Source: Gammaproteobacteria bacterium
GTDB taxonomy: Bacteria > Pseudomonadota > Gammaproteobacteria > UWMA-0217
Assembly (NCBI GenBank): GCA_026981985.1
Contig: JALSHZ010000091.1
Span: 1 to 58,522 of the forward strand
Direction: 5' to 3'
Length of the DNA: 58,522 nucleotides
The notes beneath the pieces were generated by a model that saw nothing but the letters and a program-made list of their open reading frames with translations, was not told the DNA's origin and made no database searches. Shown here piece after piece: positions 1,440 to 21,976 of the stretch. A program made the position numbers and the translations under genes. Every line of letters begins with the position of its first letter. Positions within the stretch are counted from its first letter, which is position 1.

Positions 1440-3107
1440 ATGCAAGTATTCGATCACACAAAATATCAACCTGCGCCGCGGGTGCAAAACAACGATCGGC
1501 AGTGGCCCGACCAGGTCATCAGCCAGGCGCCGATCTGGGCCAGCGTCGATCTGCGCGATGGCAATCAGGCGTTGCTGGAGCCGATGACGGTCGAGCAAAA
1601 GCGTCGCATGTGGGCGCTGCTGGTCAGTATGGGTTTGAAGCAGATCGAGGTGGGCTTTCCTTCGGCCAGTCAGCATGAATATGACTTTCTGCGCTGGTTG
1701 ATCGAAGCGAGGCAGATCCCGGAGGATGTGACCGTGCAGGTGCTGGTGCAGGCGCGCGAGGACTTGATCGTGCGTACTTTCGAGGCGCTAGAGGGCGTAC
1801 ATGCCGCGATTGTCCATGTCTATAACTCCACCTCGCCGACGCAGCGGGAGAAGGTTTTCCGCCAGTCGCGAGAGGGCATCGTCGAGATTGCGCGAAATGG
1901 CGCAAGCCTGTTGCAGCGCGAGGCCCGCAAGTACCCCGAAACCCGCTGGACATTCCAGTATTCGCCCGAGAGTTTTACCGCGACCGAAGTCGATTTTGCG
2001 GTGGAGATCTGCGATGCCGTCATCGACGTGTGGCAGCCGACACCGCAAGCGCCGGCAATCATCAATCTGCCGGCGACGGTGGAGGTGGCAACGCCGAATG
2101 TTTTCGCCGATCAGGTCGAGCTGTTCTGTCGTGGTGTGAGTCAGCGTGACAGCATCGTCGTCTCCGTTCATACCCACAATGACCGGGGCGGCGCGGTCGC
2201 GGCGGCGGAGCTGGCATTGCTGGCGGGGGCCGATCGGGTCGAGGGCACCTTGCTGGGCAATGGCGAGCGCACCGGGAATATGGATATTGTCACGCTGGCC
2301 ATGAATCTCTACAGCCAGGGCATCGATCCGCAGCTCGATCTGTCGAATCCCGACGAGATGATTGCCACCTACCGGGAGTGCACCGGCTTACCCGTGCATC
2401 CGCGCCACCCCTGGGTTGGCGAGCTGGTCTATACCGCGTTCTCTGGCAGCCATCAGGACGCGATTCGTAAATGTCTCGCGGTACAACGCGATGATGAGCC
2501 GTGGGATGTGGCCTATCTGCCGATCGACCCGGCTGATCTCGGGCGCGACTATCAGGCGGTGATTCGTGTCAACAGCCAGTCGGGCAAGGGCGGTATCGCC
2601 TTTGTGCTGGAGCGTGATTTCGGCCTCCATCTGCCGCGCTGGATGCAGGTCGAGCTGGCACAGGCGGTGCAGCGCGAAAGTGAGCGCCGCAAGGGGGAGA
2701 TCGGCGGCGACGAGATTCAGCAGATTTTTCACGATCACTTTGTCCACGATAAAGCACCGCTGCGCCTGCTTGACTATCAGCTGAAGCGCGATGGCAGTGA
2801 TGAAATTGCCATGCGAATCATGCACGATGGTGAAGAGATACTGTTACAAGGGGCCGGCGAAGGGGCGATTGCCGCATTCGTCAATGCCTGGTCGCGCTGC
2901 TCAGGTCAGCGGCTGTCGGTGGTCGACTACAGCGAGCACGCGCTGGGCGAGGGCACGGACGCAGAGGCCGTGGCCTATGTGTTGCTGAACGTCGATGGTG
3001 TCCGTGTCGCTGGCGCGGCATTCAGCAAGGACACGGTGTTGGCGTCGCTGCGCGCGGTGATCTCCGGGCTGAATCGGGCGCGGCTGGCCGTCGAGGTGGC
3101 AGCGTAA
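1440..3107 (+). CDS. leuA: 2-isopropylmalate synthase, type 2 (LeuA)
   Basis: This 555-residue enzyme condenses acetyl-CoA with 2-oxoisovalerate, the first committed step of leucine synthesis. It opens with the yeast/actinobacterial-type LeuA signature (FDHTKYQPAPRV, then DLRDGNQALLEPM with DLRDGNQ at 37-43). The metal-binding HTHND motif is at 244-248, and GNGERTGNMD also fits the TIM-barrel domain. The C-terminal part (from about 440; LLDYQLKR, GEGAIAAFVNA) matches the leucine-feedback regulatory domain. Length agrees with the type-2 branch and not with the roughly 515-residue E. coli type. It stands alone, not with leuBCD. Confidence 0.95.
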   Translation: MQVFDHTKYQPAPRVQNNDRQWPDQVISQAPIWASVDLRDGNQALLEPMTVEQKRRMWALLVSMGLKQIEVGFPSASQHEYDFLRWLIEARQIPEDVTVQVLVQAREDLIVRTFEALEGVHAAIVHVYNSTSPTQREKVFRQSREGIVEIARNGASLLQREARKYPETRWTFQYSPESFTATEVDFAVEICDAVIDVWQPTPQAPAIINLPATVEVATPNVFADQVELFCRGVSQRDSIVVSVHTHNDRGGAVAAAELALLAGADRVEGTLLGNGERTGNMDIVTLAMNLYSQGIDPQLDLSNPDEMIATYRECTGLPVHPRHPWVGELVYTAFSGSHQDAIRKCLAVQRDDEPWDVAYLPIDPADLGRDYQAVIRVNSQSGKGGIAFVLERDFGLHLPRWMQVELAQAVQRESERRKGEIGGDEIQQIFHDHFVHDKAPLRLLDYQLKRDGSDEIAMRIMHDGEEILLQGAGEGAIAAFVNAWSRCSGQRLSVVDYSEHALGEGTDAEAVAYVLLNVDGVRVAGAAFSKDTVLASLRAVISGLNRARLAVEVAA

Positions 3108-5589: not shown

Positions 5590-5892
5590 ATGAAACACTA
5601 TCTGCTAATGGCAATCATGGTCTCGATCGTGATGCTGTATCTTTATCTCAAGGTCACCGGACGCATCCGGCTGTCCGATCTCGATATCGTCCCCGTACTG
5701 GTCATCAAAGCCGTACTTTTTATTGTCAGCGGCGGTTTCTACGCATTACTGATCGCCAAATTCCTTCGCGCCACCCTGGGTTACGATGCCACCCCCCTGT
5801 CAATCGCTATCTACCTGCTGGGAGTCAGTGCTGCATTGATTGCTGCTTTCTATTCGACGCGCTGGTTGACGGATGAGAAGGGGGTCTTTTGA
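5590..5892 (+). CDS. small integral membrane protein, unknown
   Basis: This 100-residue protein has three likely membrane segments (about 4-20, 35-58 and 70-90), separated by short polar loops. The first loop contains LKVTGRIRLSDLDIVP. It ends DEKGVF. I do not recognise a family. It begins 25 bases after ppx in the same direction, without a strong ribosome binding site. It could be the last gene of the ppx unit. It is followed by a long non-coding stretch. Confidence 0.6.
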   Translation: MKHYLLMAIMVSIVMLYLYLKVTGRIRLSDLDIVPVLVIKAVLFIVSGGFYALLIAKFLRATLGYDATPLSIAIYLLGVSAALIAAFYSTRWLTDEKGVF

Positions 5893-6136: not shown

Positions 6137-6210
6137 CATCGTGAACAATGTAGCGCTGATTTTCGTCATCGCTGAAATAGAAAAGCACCAATAAACAACG
6201 ACTTGCATTC

Positions 6211-6227
6211 TTGGCACGACTCCTGCA
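6211..6227 (+). promoter_or_regulatory. sigma-54 (-24/-12) promoter of the Fap-like operon
   Basis: TTGGCACGACTCCTGCA fits the RpoN consensus TTGGCACG-N4-TTGCA. The invariant GG (6213-6214) and GC (6225-6226) are exactly 12 bases apart, as required. Transcription would start near 6238, giving a leader of about 20 bases before the AGGAGG (6247-6252) and ATG (6257). The same cluster encodes a sigma-54 activator with an intact GAFTGA loop, which supports the call. Confidence 0.82.
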
Positions 6228-6256
6228 CTACCAACCAGCAGACACCAGGAGGCGTT

Positions 6257-6919
6257 ATGTCGAGTAATAGCAATATTTTCAGAATTTCATCTGTTGGAAA
6301 GGGTCGAAGGAAATTCGCCGTGGCCCGTGTAGTGTTGTGTTCGGTGCTCGCTATGGCTGGCTGGACACAGTTCGTGGCGGCTGCGGAGCCATACGGCACG
6401 TTGAACGATGCGGCTATTTCCAATGCCGCATTGAGCAATGTCAGTGGCATTGTGGGTGTGAATCAGGCGGCTGGGGATTTCAACCTGCAGGCCAATGCCC
6501 GCGCTATTGCCATTTCGGGCAACGGCCAGGTGAGTGCCGATATTGAGCAGTTTTCTTCTTTAGCGGGGAGCACGGCGGCGGATGTCTCTGTCACCTCGAT
6601 CAAGGACAATGCTTTTCAAAATACATCCGGGCTATTGTCCATCAACCAAGCAAGTGGTTCGGGCAATCTCGAATCCAACACGATTCTTATTTCACCTTAC
6701 ATCCCGCAGGGGGAGCTGTCAGATGATCTTTTGTCACAGGCTTCGCTGGATGTCGCAAGTTTTTCAGACAAGGAGGAGCGTAGTTCTTCAGACACGCTGC
6801 GCACTGTCAATGTGGATGCAACAGCCTTTCGAGGCGTCCGGGGAGTGTTACAACTCAACCAGGCAGCAGGGATGCACAATGTCACACAAAATCGTGTGTT
6901 AATGCAAACCAATGATTAA
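6257..6919 (+). CDS. secreted Fap-type repeat protein (FapB-like)
   Basis: This 220-residue protein starts at ATG 6257 behind a strong AGGAGG. A basic N-region and hydrophobic stretch (about 19-42, ending VAAA) form a Sec signal. Three imperfect copies of one motif follow at about 57-86 (NVSGIVGVNQAAGDFNLQAN), 118-146 (NTSGLLSINQASGSGNLESN) and 189-216 (GVRGVLQLNQAAGMHNVTQN), separated by linkers. This Asn/Gln/Gly pattern and the repeat-linker-repeat layout resemble Pseudomonas FapB/FapC amyloid proteins, as recalled. FapB is the proposed minor or nucleator subunit. The mature protein has no cysteine. It is the first gene after the sigma-54 promoter. Confidence 0.7.
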   Translation: MSSNSNIFRISSVGKGRRKFAVARVVLCSVLAMAGWTQFVAAAEPYGTLNDAAISNAALSNVSGIVGVNQAAGDFNLQANARAIAISGNGQVSADIEQFSSLAGSTAADVSVTSIKDNAFQNTSGLLSINQASGSGNLESNTILISPYIPQGELSDDLLSQASLDVASFSDKEERSSSDTLRTVNVDATAFRGVRGVLQLNQAAGMHNVTQNRVLMQTND

Positions 6920-6945: not shown

Positions 6946-9030
6946 ATGAATATCCAGTATAGAAAATCAGCACTGTCCATTGCCGTTGCGGCCTGCATCT
7001 CCACAACCTCGGTGTTCGCAACCGAAGCCAACGATACGGCCTCGCAAAACAGTGGTGCTGTAGCGGCCCAGGCCATGGCAGTCGTTGCCGATTCGCAACG
7101 CGCTGCAGACAACGACATCATCATCAAGTCGGCAGATAATCAGACCGCGATCGACGGTAACGCGATGGAGAATATCTCAGGCAACATGGGCGTCAATATC
7201 GCTTCAGGTGACAACAACATGCAGGCGAATGCGGCTGCCATTGCAACCGCCAATGCGGATGCTTCCTTCGTCTTCGATGATCCCTCCGCAGAGGTCTATG
7301 TTGAGCAGAGCGTCAACAACAACAGTTTTTCCAGTTCGGGTAGCCGTAATGAAGCCCGACTAGAGGGGCACGCCATCAGCAATGTCACGGGCAACGTCGG
7401 CGCGAACATTGCTTCGGGCAGTTTCAATCTGCAGAAAAACGATTTTTCGGTTTCGATCTCGAACAATGGGTCGGCGTTAGCTGCTGCTGGTGTGCATCAG
7501 GAATCGATTGGCAACAATGTGAAGACTGAGGGTCGCTACGATGTTGTCACCGATACCACGAGCATTACATTGTCGGGCGATGCTGTTGGCTCCTCACAGG
7601 GCAAGGGTCAAGGTTACTATTCCGGCAGTACTAGCGCCGATATCAGTGGTAACGTGAACGCCGATTATCGTGGCAGCGCCGCAGGCGCGACTTCTGCACA
7701 GCTGTCTGGAAACTATGTCGGCATCGAAGCTGGCCAAACCTCGGCCCGCCTGGAAGGTGCTTATAAAGGAAGCGAATATGGCAGCTACCAAGGTACTGAA
7801 TCAGGCAAGACGGCGGCAACCGTCGAAGGCACTTACAATGGATACGCTTATGGGAGAAACACTGACTGGATAAATGGTACCTATGATGGAGAAACCGCGG
7901 GTGCTTATGAAGGCCAGGCGCTTGGTGATACCAAAGGCGATATTTCCGGCAATTACTGGGGCAGTACGCAGGGCGACACCCAGGCGAAGATCGATGGTGG
8001 CTACAAAGGCAATACCGCCGGCACTTATAAGGGCGAACAGGAAGGGAGCACGGAGTCGACTTCGGTCGGCATCTATGGCGGTGTTGCCATAGGCGGGACA
8101 CAATCGCAGTTCAAGGGCAGCTATAACGGTACCCAGGAGGGTTCATACGAGGGTACAGCGAGTGGTACGGAGCAGGGTGCGTATACGGGGACGCATAGCG
8201 TTATAGGTTTCCCAGTGGCAACGGAAACAGGGCAGTATGCTGGTACTTATGAAGGTGAAGAGAGTGGCAGCTACCAAGGCCGCGAAAATGGCTACCTCAG
8301 CGGCAACAGTAGAGGAAGTTATGCAGGTATCGAGGGAGGTGTTACCGCATCGGTAGCCACCGGTGAGTATGAGGGAACAGAGGCTGGTAAGTTCGCGGGA
8401 AAAGAGTCTGGTGTGATCGGCGCTAAAAGTGACGGTAGTTTCACAGGTTCTGAGAAGGGTGAAACGTATTCCACGCTCTACGGCAGCTATGAAGGTAGTG
8501 AATGGGGTAAATACGAAGGTGCCGAGAAAGGCAGGATCTCAGCCACAAGCGAAGGTAACTATGAAGGCAAGGAAGCCGGATCTACATGGGCCGCTTCGGA
8601 AGGGGAATACAAGGGTACAGCGCAAGGAAAATATCGTGGCAAGGAGCAGGGTAAGTTGGCGGCAGACAGCGAAGGTGAGTATGCCGGTATCGCTGCCGGA
8701 ATCACCGAAGCCAGTTCCGAAGGAAAATATGCTGGCAAGGAATCAGGCAGCATCGATGGCACTGTGGACGCAAAAAGTGAAGGTTCAGAGAATGGCTCGC
8801 TCAGCTTCGAGGAGGTCTCGGATATCAGCCTCGCCACCACAATGACCGGTGAAGTCACGAACAAGACCCACATCCTCGTCGACAATGCCGTCAACAAAGT
8901 TGTTCTGGGCGGATATGCGCTGTCCGGAGCCAGTGGTAACATTGGCGTCAACATGGCGTCGGGCAATGGCAACATGCAGGCCAACAGCCTCGCCATCGCA
9001 TCTACGACTGGCAATACCACTGGGCATTGA
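6946..9030 (+). CDS. large secreted Fap-type protein with GxYxG tandem repeats (FapC-like)
   Basis: This 694-residue protein has a signal peptide (1-24, ending TSVFA). Three Fap-type motifs lie at about 72-100 (NISGNMGVNIASGDNNMQAN), 142-171 (NVTGNVGANIASGSFNLQKN) and 657-685 (GASGNIGVNMASGNGNMQAN). Residues about 223-600 are a low-complexity array of about 29 units G-x-[YF]-x-G-x-x-x-G (for example GSYEGSEWG, GKYEGAEKG), becoming more Glu/Lys-rich towards the end. In Fap terms this array occupies the variable linker between repeats 2 and 3. The mature protein has no cysteine. It is the likely structural subunit of an extracellular fibre; that role is inferred. Confidence 0.72.
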   Translation: MNIQYRKSALSIAVAACISTTSVFATEANDTASQNSGAVAAQAMAVVADSQRAADNDIIIKSADNQTAIDGNAMENISGNMGVNIASGDNNMQANAAAIATANADASFVFDDPSAEVYVEQSVNNNSFSSSGSRNEARLEGHAISNVTGNVGANIASGSFNLQKNDFSVSISNNGSALAAAGVHQESIGNNVKTEGRYDVVTDTTSITLSGDAVGSSQGKGQGYYSGSTSADISGNVNADYRGSAAGATSAQLSGNYVGIEAGQTSARLEGAYKGSEYGSYQGTESGKTAATVEGTYNGYAYGRNTDWINGTYDGETAGAYEGQALGDTKGDISGNYWGSTQGDTQAKIDGGYKGNTAGTYKGEQEGSTESTSVGIYGGVAIGGTQSQFKGSYNGTQEGSYEGTASGTEQGAYTGTHSVIGFPVATETGQYAGTYEGEESGSYQGRENGYLSGNSRGSYAGIEGGVTASVATGEYEGTEAGKFAGKESGVIGAKSDGSFTGSEKGETYSTLYGSYEGSEWGKYEGAEKGRISATSEGNYEGKEAGSTWAASEGEYKGTAQGKYRGKEQGKLAADSEGEYAGIAAGITEASSEGKYAGKESGSIDGTVDAKSEGSENGSLSFEEVSDISLATTMTGEVTNKTHILVDNAVNKVVLGGYALSGASGNIGVNMASGNGNMQANSLAIASTTGNTTGH
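7612..8745 (+). repeat. tandem GxYxG-coding repeat array
   Basis: This is the DNA coding residues 223-600 of the large secreted protein. The repeat is conserved mainly at protein level, with unit spacing of about 8 to 18 codons. The DNA copies are diverged, so recent slippage expansion is not obvious. Tyr or Phe recurs at the third position of nearly every unit, with Gly on either side. Confidence 0.85.
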
Positions 9031-9134: not shown

Positions 9135-9854
9135 ATGCGATTCAAAGCATCCCATCTGTTGTTTCAAGTGTCTCTTTTGTTTGCAGCGTTTGGCATTTTC
9201 CAGGCACCGTCCGCGATTGCGGGCGATATTCTGTTTTCTGGTGTGGCGGCATCCGGCGGGCTTTATTCCGCTCGGGTCGTGAGCATGAACGAGGCCAAGT
9301 ACAAGAATCTTGTTCGCCAGAATACGGACTACAGCTGTGGTGCGGCAGCATTGGCGACGATTCTGAAATATGCCTATGGGCTCGACGCCAATGAAAGGGT
9401 TGTCATGGAAGGTATGCTCGAATCCGGAGATGCTGAACTCGTGCGCCGCAAGGGTTTTTCGATGCTCGACATGAAGCACTATGTCGAATCGTTGGGTTTG
9501 CGAGGCCGAGGTTATCGCTTGTCCGAAACGCGCTTGAAAACCTTGAGAATTCCGGTGGTGGTATTGATGGACATCAACGGCTACAAGCATTTTTCAGTGC
9601 TAAAGCGTATCAGCAATGATGAAGCTTTTTTAGCGGACCCTGTTCTCGGTAACAAGAGGATGTCGTTTGACGAGTTCAGACAAGCCTGGAGCAATCGTGT
9701 TGTCTTTGCCGTCATTGGCAGCGGCTTCGTCAGGGATACCGCATTACTGGAAATTCCATTCAAGCTAACCAGTAGCCATTGGTTGAGGAATAACTCGCCA
9801 CTGGCGGATGCGGAGTTGATGGACTTTGGCTTTACGCATGCAGATCTATTCTGA
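9135..9854 (+). CDS. secreted C39-family peptidase (FapD-like)
   Basis: This 239-residue protein has a signal peptide (1-29, ending PSAIA). The C39 papain-like core follows: QNTDYSCGAAALATIL with oxyanion Gln62 and nucleophile Cys68, His152 in NGYKHFSVLK, and Asp168 in FLADPVLGNKRM. C39 peptidases normally cut double-glycine leaders inside ABC exporters. A stand-alone exported C39 enzyme next to repeat-motif secreted proteins is the arrangement of FapD in the Pseudomonas Fap operon. It probably acts in the periplasm on a cluster protein; its substrate is not known. Confidence 0.82.
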   Translation: MRFKASHLLFQVSLLFAAFGIFQAPSAIAGDILFSGVAASGGLYSARVVSMNEAKYKNLVRQNTDYSCGAAALATILKYAYGLDANERVVMEGMLESGDAELVRRKGFSMLDMKHYVESLGLRGRGYRLSETRLKTLRIPVVVLMDINGYKHFSVLKRISNDEAFLADPVLGNKRMSFDEFRQAWSNRVVFAVIGSGFVRDTALLEIPFKLTSSHWLRNNSPLADAELMDFGFTHADLF

Positions 9855-9865
9855 GGAAAATGATC

Positions 9866-10660
9866 ATGAAAAGCATAAAAGAAACGATTGCGCCGTTTTT
9901 TCTAGGAGTTGCAATAACAAGCGTCGCATCAGTGTCACTGGCAGCGCCGGGGGATGGCGGGGTGGGTCAGGGGATTTCAGTCCTGACCAGCCCGGAGATG
10001 GCGACGATACGAGGGAAATACGTGGTTGCATCGGATACGGTACTCTACTTCGGGGTCGAAATGGCCAGTGTGTGGAGAACGCAGGACGGGCAGCAGTTGC
10101 AGGGTGGCGCACGCCTGGGGCTCGATTTCTCCGGTGGTGCATCGCCAACGGTGAGTTTCTCGCCTACGGTGAGTATTTTATCCGGGACTGGCCGAGGGAC
10201 AGCGATCGACACCAGTAATCGCACCGTGAATTCATCCGGAATCGACAACGTCACCGGCTTGGGTCAGAGCATCCAGGTTGCGGGCGATTTCAATACGGCA
10301 TCGAATACGCTCAGCGTACGACTTTTGGACAAGCTTCCGGAGAACCGCGGTCAGGGTGTCGGGGAATCGCTTGCCGTCAGCGACGGCGCGGGTGGGTCGG
10401 CAACTGCGGCCCTCAATGACAAGGGAATGATGGTCACACTGTCGCTCGACGGGCAGGGGGTTGTTCAGCAATCCATTCGCGGTGCGCTTCGTGATGGTGC
10501 CCGTACCGGCAACGGTGCGTTTCAGTCGATCAAGACATTGGGGGACTCGCATACGATCTCCAATCGAATGCAGCTCTCAATTCTGATGAAACCCCGTGCA
10601 GAGTCGGCCAATCTGAGTAAGACGCTTGGCGTTTCATTGGGCGGTCTGCGAGGATTGTAG
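9866..10660 (+). CDS. secreted protein with degenerate Fap-type motif (FapE-like)
   Basis: This 264-residue protein has a signal peptide (about 1-28, ending SVSLAA). ATG 9866 sits 9 bases after gagg; ATG 9860 is only 3 bases from it. The mature part is Gly/Ser-rich and predicted beta-rich. Residues 123-152 (GIDNVTGLGQSIQVAGDFNT, then ASNTLSVRL) resemble the fibre motif of the two proteins upstream, and DSHTISNRMQL may be a second partial copy. Position between the C39 gene and the outer-membrane channel is that of fapE. It has no cysteine. A minor fibre component or assembly factor is inferred. Confidence 0.55.
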   Translation: MKSIKETIAPFFLGVAITSVASVSLAAPGDGGVGQGISVLTSPEMATIRGKYVVASDTVLYFGVEMASVWRTQDGQQLQGGARLGLDFSGGASPTVSFSPTVSILSGTGRGTAIDTSNRTVNSSGIDNVTGLGQSIQVAGDFNTASNTLSVRLLDKLPENRGQGVGESLAVSDGAGGSATAALNDKGMMVTLSLDGQGVVQQSIRGALRDGARTGNGAFQSIKTLGDSHTISNRMQLSILMKPRAESANLSKTLGVSLGGLRGL

Positions 10661-10778: not shown

Positions 10779-12182
10779 ATGGAATTCAAACTAGGTATAG
10801 GCGTGGCAGTGCTCGTGTCATGTATGGTGATGCAGGTCGCCACTCCGGTCGGCGCGGAAGAGGCCGAGGATCGGCCGATTTTTCTGGATCAGCCTCCCAG
10901 GGAGGCTGGTGACGGACATCCCGAGAAAGCATCCCCAGTCGATCCCGTCGCCAGGCAGAAGGTCACGCACAAGAAAGATAGCGATACGCCACGGGTTTCC
11001 AATGAGTCGTCGGCAGATCTACGCCAGGAAATGTTGCTGCTACGCAAGCAGTACAGTGAGGATCTCAAAAAACTGCGTGATCTCGATTTGCGCTTGAAGG
11101 CATTGGGGGGTGGCAATGGACCGGCTTTGGCGAAGCCGGGAAACGCCGCTGCGGCGGCTGCCCGGAATAATCCGGTTCGAGTGGGTGTCGACAAAAAGAA
11201 GGCCAGTGAGGTGGCAGGAATTTCTCGCAATGTGGAGGATCTGCTGCAGGTCGAGCATCCTTCGTTTGATCAGACATTCACCCTGGAATCTGCGATCAAC
11301 TACAGCCGCTACGACAGGACGCAAGTGACGCTGAATGGTTTCCTCGCGCTGGATGCGATCTTTCTGGGCAATCTGGCTGTTGAGGGTGTCGCCTCCGATA
11401 CGCTGACTTATTCACTGACGGGCCGATATGGTTTCAATGAGCGTCTGGTGTTCAACTTGTCGACACCGTTTGTCTATCGCAAGACGATCTATGCCAAAGG
11501 TGGCGTAGGAGGCGTTGCCTCGGCCAATTCCGAAACCGATGTGACGCGTGATGCAGCGCTTGGGGATGTGTCGCTTGGCATGAGCTATCGCCTGTTTCCT
11601 GCTAGCAAGGCAGCCGATTGGGTCTGGAACGTCGATATTACCGCGCCGACCGGGGAACATCCTTATGGCGTTCCTGTGCGGGTCGTGGAAAAAGATGCCG
11701 AAGGCGTGACCACATTTTCGGTGCCGCGGGACCTGCCGACCGGCAGCGGCATCTGGTCACTCAATACCGGGGTTTCGTTTGTCAAAACCAGTGACCCGGC
11801 GATACTGTTCGGTAACTTTGGCATCGGCTACAACCGATCGCAATCGTTTGCGGACGTTGATTCTGATCCCAACACCAGAACTCGCGGGGACATCAACCTC
11901 GGAAATTCGGTCAACTACGGTTTTGGCATGGCCATTGCCATGAACGAAACTACCAGCCTGAGCCTGTCGTTCAGTCACAAACTGGCGCAGAAGACCAAAA
12001 CCCGCAGTGCAGGCGGCCCTTGGACCAACGTGATTGGCAGCGATGCCAACTCAGCCATGTTCAATGTCGGCATTACCCAGGGGCTGGGCAGCCACTGGTC
12101 CATCGCAGGCACCGTGGGTGTCGGTTTGACGGATGATGCACCCGACTTCACCTTTGGACTACGGTTGCCATATCGTTTTTAG
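10779..12182 (+). CDS. outer-membrane channel with coiled-coil N-terminus (FapF-like)
   Basis: This 467-residue protein has a signal peptide (about 1-26, ending PVGA), a polar linker, a heptad-like helix at about 79-109 (LRQEMLLLRKQYSEDLKKLR) and a Gly/Ala/Asn linker. From about 175 alternating hydrophobic/aromatic strands run to the terminal Phe of RLPYRF, a typical outer-membrane beta-signal. FapF is a trimeric barrel with an N-terminal coiled coil that exports Fap amyloids. The same domain order and operon position suggest the same role. Alternative annotation would be a generic MetA-type transporter-like porin. Confidence 0.72.
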   Translation: MEFKLGIGVAVLVSCMVMQVATPVGAEEAEDRPIFLDQPPREAGDGHPEKASPVDPVARQKVTHKKDSDTPRVSNESSADLRQEMLLLRKQYSEDLKKLRDLDLRLKALGGGNGPALAKPGNAAAAAARNNPVRVGVDKKKASEVAGISRNVEDLLQVEHPSFDQTFTLESAINYSRYDRTQVTLNGFLALDAIFLGNLAVEGVASDTLTYSLTGRYGFNERLVFNLSTPFVYRKTIYAKGGVGGVASANSETDVTRDAALGDVSLGMSYRLFPASKAADWVWNVDITAPTGEHPYGVPVRVVEKDAEGVTTFSVPRDLPTGSGIWSLNTGVSFVKTSDPAILFGNFGIGYNRSQSFADVDSDPNTRTRGDINLGNSVNYGFGMAIAMNETTSLSLSFSHKLAQKTKTRSAGGPWTNVIGSDANSAMFNVGITQGLGSHWSIAGTVGVGLTDDAPDFTFGLRLPYRF

Positions 12183-12504: not shown

Positions 12505-13902
12505 ATGGCAACTGCGCACAATCCAGTATCGGCTCGTCGCCGCATTCTTTGCCTTGGAGGTTGTGAAGGGGCGCTGCAGCGTTTGTTGCCGCCTGATCAG
12601 TGGGAATTGGTTTCTGCGGACAGCCTGAAAGCACTACGGCTGGCGGCCAGTGACCGTGATATCCGTGTGATGGTAGCCGCGATAGGATTCGACAACGCCA
12701 AAACGCTTGAACTTGCTGAGGAGCTGCTGTTCGAGCGCCGGGACATCCGGGCTGTTGGCATCATCGAACCTGGCACCCTCGAGCAAACTCGGCTGCGGCG
12801 CGCGCTGAGCAGGCTGTTCTTCGACTTTCTCACCATGCCGCTATTACCCGAAGCGGTGCAATACGCCATTGGTCATGCCTATGGCATGGCGTCGATTTCC
12901 TGTTGTGGTGGTCAATCAGAGAAGTGCATTTCACCCGTGGCGTCCAGCTACAAGCTGTTTGGGCGAAGCGACATCATGGTGGCGCTAAGGGAGCGAATCT
13001 CCCGCATCAGCACATCCGACGCACCGGTGATGATCGGTGGTGAATCAGGTACCGGAAAGGAACTCGCTGCACGGAATGTTCATGCCGAATCCGACCGTTG
13101 TGACGAACCATTCGTTGCAGTGAATATGGCGGCGATTCCCGAAAATCTGGTGCAGACCGAGTTGTTTGGCCATGAAAAAGGGGCATTCACCGGTGCTGCT
13201 CAGCAACGTATCGGGCATATCGAGTCAGCCCATGGTGGGACGCTTTTTCTTGACGAGATTGGCGACCTGCCGCTGCAAAGCCAGGGTAACTTGTTGCGGT
13301 TTCTCCAGGAGGGCGTCATCACCAGGGTAGGTGGCTCACAGTTGATCAAGGTTGATGTGAGGGTGATCACGGCGACGCACATCGACCTTGAAGAAGCTGT
13401 CGCTGCGGGCCGCTTTCGTGAAGATCTCTATTACCGACTCAACGTATTGCAGCTGGAAATGCCCCCGCTACGTGATCGGGGGAGCGACATTGCCTATCTG
13501 GCGGAGCGTTTCTTCGAACAGTTTTGCGCCCGCTCACGTTGCTGCGCCAAGGGTTTGAGTCAGCGCTCGCTCGCTGTAATGAAGGAGCACGACTGGCCTG
13601 GGAACGTGCGAGAAATGCTCAATCGCATACAGCGTGCAGTGGTCATGTGTACAGGGCAGTTGATCCATCCCGAAGACCTGGGGCTGGAACGACGTGAATC
13701 GTCCAGAAAGCTCGAAACACTCGCCGAAGCACGTGCCAGGGTGGAAAAACAACTGCTCCGCACGGCTTTGATCGACAGTAACTACAATCTGTCAGAAGCG
13801 TCGCGCTTGCTGGGGACGTCTCGGGTCACGCTGTACAAGCTGATTGACAAACATGGCATTCAAAGCAGCCCGGGGCGAGAGGTGACGTCTGACGTCGCAT
13901 AG
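12505..13902 (+). CDS. sigma-54 activator of the VpsR/FleQ type
   Basis: This 465-residue protein has an N-terminal receiver-like domain (1-130) with no Asp at the expected phospho-acceptor strand (IRVMVAAIGFDNA). Its end resembles VpsR (FFDFLTMPLLPEAVQYAIGH). The AAA+ domain has Walker A GESGTGKE (179-186), an intact GAFTGA loop (226-231), GGTLFLDEIGDLP and the WPGNVRE sensor region. A Fis-type HTH closes it (NLSEASRLLGTSRVTLYKLI). GAFTGA is the sigma-54 contact, so it should act at RpoN promoters; the only near-consensus one nearby is 6211. VpsR and FleQ bind c-di-GMP; that input is inferred here. Several Cys (CCGG, RSRCCAK) are unusual. Confidence 0.88.
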   Translation: MATAHNPVSARRRILCLGGCEGALQRLLPPDQWELVSADSLKALRLAASDRDIRVMVAAIGFDNAKTLELAEELLFERRDIRAVGIIEPGTLEQTRLRRALSRLFFDFLTMPLLPEAVQYAIGHAYGMASISCCGGQSEKCISPVASSYKLFGRSDIMVALRERISRISTSDAPVMIGGESGTGKELAARNVHAESDRCDEPFVAVNMAAIPENLVQTELFGHEKGAFTGAAQQRIGHIESAHGGTLFLDEIGDLPLQSQGNLLRFLQEGVITRVGGSQLIKVDVRVITATHIDLEEAVAAGRFREDLYYRLNVLQLEMPPLRDRGSDIAYLAERFFEQFCARSRCCAKGLSQRSLAVMKEHDWPGNVREMLNRIQRAVVMCTGQLIHPEDLGLERRESSRKLETLAEARARVEKQLLRTALIDSNYNLSEASRLLGTSRVTLYKLIDKHGIQSSPGREVTSDVA

Positions 13903-21775: not shown

Positions 21776-21976
21776 ACCGTCTTTTCGGCATGGATGGTGG
21801 AATCCAGCGCCAGGGAAGGCTCCCAACAGCAGTGGTGTACATCCCTGTAACTGGATCCCCGTTCCCGCGGGGATGACGCACACCGTCTTTCCGGCAGGGA
21901 CGGCGGAATCCAGCGCCAGGGAGGGCTTCCACTGGCGGTGGAATATATCCCTGTAGCCGGATCCCCGCTCCCTGCA
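21776..21976. repeat. two tandem diverged copies of a 106-base repeat
   Basis: ACCGTCTTTTCGGCATGGAT (21776) and ACCGTCTTTCCGGCAGGGAC (21882) begin two tandem copies of the same sequence. Shared blocks include GGAATCCAGCGCCAGGGA, then ATCCCTGTA and GGATCCCCG. The copies resemble the widespread extragenic repeats built on GGATCCCCG/CGGGGATGACG. They fill most of the gap between fadJ and the next gene. Confidence 0.75.

Follow-up and report, generated by a model that had tools for sequence, protein, structure and literature searches.

We found that the gene at 6946-9030, in a window of 58,522 nucleotides (the whole stretch of DNA that was analysed), encodes what is by sequence a homologue of the biofilm amyloid protein FapC, the major Fap subunit, with a Gly/Tyr repeat array as its hypervariable L2 linker, here of extreme length. 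This linker is, in our view, probably a hairpin-like pair of octad arms around a hinge that projects from the amyloid core.

The gene lies in a single cluster with the order fapB-C-D-E-F (Table 1), in which every NCBIfam match falls below its curated cut-off. The FapC product scores 159 bits against the 195 of the equivalog family NF058558 (AmldFbnFapC) and is therefore called a FapC homologue here, not an NF058558 equivalog; only 5 of the 17 class genomes having a match passed this cut-off. Three Fap repeats with the core GNxGxNxAxGxxNxQxN are present, starting at residues 79, 149 and 664, and in a PDB sequence comparison FapC chains of solved structure matched residues 38-195 (9u4u, E=5.9e-16; 9nqd, E=1.2e-15). 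A family search of the window recognised no fapA beside fapB. Upstream of fapB there is a 100-aa open reading frame whose family was not recognised (5590-5892, +), and a sigma-54 activator with a VpsR-like N-terminal domain lies directly downstream of fapF (12505-13902, +). The sigma-54 promoter pattern gave 42 matches against 41 expected, and thus no evidence for a sigma-54 promoter. The window also holds a direct repeat of 106 bp at 21776-21972 (1.9 copies, 82% matches).

Table 1. Features of the fap cluster and of the L2 linker
Feature	Position	Strand	Residues	Basis
FapB-like minor subunit	6203..6919	+		TTG is the first in-frame start; NCBIfam FblAmlydFapB E=1.9e-30, below its cut-off
FapC homologue carrying the array	6946..9030	+	694 aa	NCBIfam AmldFbnFapC E=1.8e-46, 159 bits against a cut-off of 195
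Fap repeat 1 core motif GNMGVNIASGDNNMQAN	7180..7230	+	79-95	motif scan
Fap repeat 2 core motif GNVGANIASGSFNLQKN	7390..7440	+	149-165	motif scan
N flank of L2	7441..7593	+	166-216	homologous to other FapC; phmmer of 166-222, best E=6.1e-9 to FapC relative L120
N-arm of L2	7594..8193	+	217-416	~24 octads, Glu/Lys-poor; octad table
Hinge HSVIGFPVATET	8194..8229	+	417-428	12 residues; sole octad-phase break
C-arm of L2	8230..8805	+	429-620	~24 octads, Glu/Lys-rich; octad table
C flank of L2	8758..8895	+	605-650	homologous to other FapC; overlaps C-arm end; phmmer best E=3.4e-8 to FapC relative L118
Fap repeat 3 core motif GNIGVNMASGNGNMQAN	8935..8985	+	664-680	motif scan
FapD-like C39 peptidase	9135..9854	+		Pfam Peptidase_C39 E=1e-21; C39_FapD E=1.2e-78, 263/330 bits
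FapE-like protein	9860..10660	+		FblAmlydFapE E=9.7e-21, below cut-off
FapF-like outer-membrane transporter	10779..12182	+		FblAmlydTptrFapF E=6e-108, 361/700 bits

The array is built of octads. GxYxG was found 28 times in residues 223-600 (7612-8745), 26 times in the full form GxYxGxxxG, while 2000 shuffles of residues 205-620 averaged 1.76 and never exceeded 7. An earlier sequence-only reading had counted about 29 regularly spaced copies there and placed them between Fap repeats 2 and 3; the regular spacing held, and the Gly/Tyr lattice does occupy the linker between these repeats. Autocorrelation was significant at multiples of 4 residues only, with top lags of 40, 24 and 16 (z 14.1, 13.5 and 12.8). 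From residue 255 onward the motifs are spaced 16-16-8, with an exception at about residues 411-432. Two octad types, A (GxYxGx[E/A]x) and B (GxTx[A/G/S]xxx), follow each other in the order ABAAB, giving a 40-residue super-repeat. Position 1 is Gly in 44/46 octads and position 5 a small residue in 45/46; even positions favour polar residues and odd positions small or aromatic ones. Gly and Tyr have power at periods 2 and 4 and none at 3.6 residues, and a helical GxxxG reading was rejected on this ground. MORN, RTX and ice-nucleation families were likewise rejected as the identity of the array, with no Pfam match at E<=1.

Between repeat units, DNA identity is just 33-55% and the lattice is kept, so it is held at the protein level. 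All four codons for Gly and both for Tyr occur at lattice positions, and a DNA tandem-repeat search detected nothing within the array. Strongly conserved Gly and Tyr over diverged DNA speak for selection acting on the protein rather than for recent slippage.

The lattice is not continuous. Its periodicity had been taken as that of a single array, and the periodicity stood, but the hinge interrupts the array at residues 417-428. Read outward from the hinge, the octad types run AABABAABABAABABAABABABAB and AABABAABABAABABAABABABBB, a mirrored match in 23/24 octads, to be read with the caveat that, with a 5-octad period, the correct phase would come up by chance one time in five. The Glu/Lys content, described earlier as rising along the array, does rise (21/200 residues in the N-arm vs 42/192 in the C-arm, Fisher p = 0.0024), but as a step between the arms. 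Charge complementarity between the arms gave no clear register (|z| at most ~2 across 34 registers).

We compared the lengths of the arms across FapC homologues, using as anchors sequence motifs that we picked: N is the distance between the repeat-2 motif and the hinge (or tip), and C that between the hinge (or tip) and the repeat-3 motif. A FapD scan matched 316 loci, 80 of which were examined, and FapC adjoins nearly all of these 80. Among 40 distinct non-Pseudomonas L2 sequences (with the final GG motif set manually for L118-L120) the two arms were correlated with r = 0.984. N-C was 28-33 in this set, and 31 or 32 in 29/40, while N spans 79-119; its sd was 1.4, whereas none of 10000 permutations went below 6.6. 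The length of the tip showed no significant covariation with N (r = -0.30, p = 0.06). The window, with N 268 and C 236, has an N-C of 32 and thus fits the same rule. In 23 Pseudomonas sequences the correlation was 0.993, with N-C equal to 33 in 8/8 sequences with a GDRTR hinge (N 141-185) and to 29 in 4/4 with a GRRERTR hinge. Independent contrasts on the FapD tree gave r of 0.969 (non-Pseudomonas) and 0.993 (Pseudomonas), the length of the N-arm having changed at least 13 and 16 times, respectively. Exact matching in two lineages, upheld by contrasts, places L2 under structural constraint. The persistence of the match in related FapC proteins suggests a paired fold on the fibre for this supposedly 'disordered' linker.

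The spacing from repeat 2 to repeat 3 in the window (515) was the longest of the 85 FapC-type open reading frames parsed, the runner-up being 344. Besides its own genome, a profile of the array matched 1 of 369 class genomes (G243), inside another FapC, both arms of which were matched by a second profile; 0 of 398 phylum genomes matched. Of the protein matches in class genomes, those frames that were inspected were rejected as low-complexity runs with Gly at every fourth residue in a different context; FliH-like proteins with GxxxG runs, repeats of GISVGD and frames broken by stops are examples. The phage records queried with the array gave no match, the viral contigs pattern matches only and no relative, and the plasmid search a single weak Lactococcus match.

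Tandem octads were found in other linkers. Many non-Pseudomonas L2s carry short GxYxGxxxG (GxYxGxEx) tracts on either side of a conserved tip module, and it is to these non-Pseudomonas FapC proteins that both L2 flanks in the window show homology (E = 6e-9 and 3e-8). Long Pseudomonas L2s also consist of arrayed octads (SASGSNSS and RDSSYDRS units), their lengths mostly differing by multiples of 8. The other FapC linkers parsed were all shorter, as had been expected; that ordinary ones are not tandem was not upheld, given the Pseudomonas octads and the 5+5 GxYxGSEx octads of an Acidiferrobacterales FapC. Judged on the sequences compared, tandem FapC linkers are not unusual, and only the length and the mirrored super-repeat of the window are.

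The tip module, Y-x-D-x-W ... HP-x-G ... GH-x-D-x-D ... QGA ... GG, was noted in loci L028-L081 and L118-L126, where it stands between the arms of most long non-Pseudomonas L2s; the L2 of the window does not have it. It is rich in His and Asp and perhaps binds metal or a ligand. Repetitive sequence was also seen ahead of repeat 1, as DTSYSDSFDR units in the FapC homologue of L004 (ORF 1453-3105, -) and as NTNTNT runs in that of L124 (ORF 919-2481). The FapC homologue of L129 (G209) has 8 Fap repeats in one ORF and 3 more in the next, with a masked stretch.

In the fibril of UK4 FapC, every Fap repeat makes up a single cross-beta layer, with linkers running between the layers (PMC12392863). Since repeats correspond to layers, L2 would leave the core after repeat 2 (layer 2) and return at repeat 3 (layer 3). 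Arms of equal length would most simply be two strands, or two series of strands, antiparallel about the hinge. They would pair with each other about this short hinge, most likely antiparallel and in an extended or beta-like conformation, so that the amyloid core would bear a fin in the shape of a hairpin. With paired arms, one arm could keep an insertion only if the other gained an equal one. The strict alternation of small or aromatic with polar positions would turn Gly and Tyr to one side of the arms and the charged residues to the opposite side, with more charge on the C-arm, and this would set how stiff the fibre coat is and what its surface chemistry is; a tyrosine column may run inside the paired arms. 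With three 4.8 A layers to each L2, successive fins would lie some 14 A apart along the fibre.

The strongest alternative, which we nevertheless regard as unlikely, is that the arms span equal distances without pairing with each other, each stacking on the arms of neighbouring subunits in an intermolecular cross-beta sheath. Equal arm lengths are expected here too, and in AF3 models of PAO1 and Pf5 linker strands extend the amyloid-like region (PMC12392863). However, arms running in opposite directions would need to alternate for in-register parallel stacking of successive layers, and the mirrored octad order more directly fits pairing about a hinge.

A disordered sticker-and-spacer brush around the fibril, with Tyr as stickers, Gly as spacers and a lattice that reflects composition only, seems to us less likely still. 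The literature describes FapC linkers as a flexible or disordered coat, with longer linkers making the edge of the fibril softer (PMC12392863, PMC3792158): the short linkers of UK4 FapC are without density in cryo-EM, long linkers accompany softer fibril edges, and a flexible fuzzy coat has been considered possible (PMC12392863). The array is Gly-rich, and AlphaFold2 gave it no confident fold, with a pLDDT of 35.0 for the array alone and of 27.8 when its own units were supplied as the alignment, which is low confidence rather than a clear prediction of disorder. The AlphaFold2 result, the linkers without density, the softer edges and the lack of a clear charge register also weigh against the paired-arm reading. 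A brush would not, however, predict Gly and Tyr phase-locked over diverged DNA, or arm lengths matched exactly in two lineages.

The sequence-only reading had favoured one stacked ladder or beta-solenoid, and we now consider a single solenoid with a tyrosine ladder improbable. Regular Gly/Tyr spacing with periods of 8 and 16 would suit it, as would the ice nucleation proteins, modelled as 16-residue coils with a Tyr ladder (PMC9418140). Yet a spacing of 16-16-8 makes 2.5 coils per 40 residues, the lattice breaks at a hinge common to another FapC, the arms are length-matched and mirrored about that hinge, and neither Pfam (E<=1) nor AlphaFold2 gave a match or a confident model. Neutral slippage of a 24-nt unit is the least credible reading: octads do arise in this way, as near-identical 24-nt repeats in the relatives L078 (97% matches) and L088 (92%) indicate, but the units in the window are old and diverged with the lattice kept, and growth was matched between both arms.

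Extended to the family, the paired-arm reading would make the Fap L2 linker a two-arm fin whose arms lengthen only by matched steps about an exchangeable tip, with the window as the longest case here, a mirrored Gly/Tyr zipper of ~48 octads and a new structural element of functional amyloid fibrils; we hold the chances of this to be about even. The rule is quantitative, N minus C being constant per hinge type, and as a family-wide rule it argues against L2 as plain disorder. No mention of an arm-length rule or of octads was found in the open-access subset of the FapC literature. If the rule is true, linker variation would become a designable element of amyloid materials.

Among named systems, CsgA of curli is also a secreted repeat amyloid of biofilms, but its imperfect repeats are linked by tight turns, without long linkers (PMC9268375). 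Ice nucleation proteins share tandem repeats containing Gly and Tyr, 16 residues long (PMC9418140); they differ from the window in that its 16-16-8 spacing precludes a stacked 16-residue coil, its array has no Pfam match to them, and it has a hinge and matched arms. Pseudomonas FapC is closer, with three Fap repeats, the neighbours fapB, D, E and F, and, in the loci compared here, long L2s that are octad arrays with matched arms; the length of its L2 varies from 35 to 259 residues in four strains (PMC12392863). The window is set apart from it by the spacing of 515, by octads of Gly/Tyr/Glu instead of Ser/Ala and Ser/Tyr/Asp/Arg, by the ABAAB super-repeat, by a different hinge and by a fapA that was not recognised. 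The Acidiferrobacterales MAG locus L078 (WGFP01000221.1) shares the octad formula GxYxGxEx, as GYYRGSER and GRYYGSEG, five on each side of the tip, whereas its 10 octads are near-identical copies and a tip module is present. The FapC of Frateuria terrea (L049), like the window, is without the tip module; its arms are joined by a hinge of the same type, VSVFGYPIASYG against HSVIGFPVATET in the window, and its N-C is 33 against 32. Its arms have few octads and are much shorter (N 92 and C 59), the differences from the window being 176 and 177 residues, which equals 22 octads per arm. Relative to Frateuria terrea, both arms of the window would thus have been extended by about 22 octads each.
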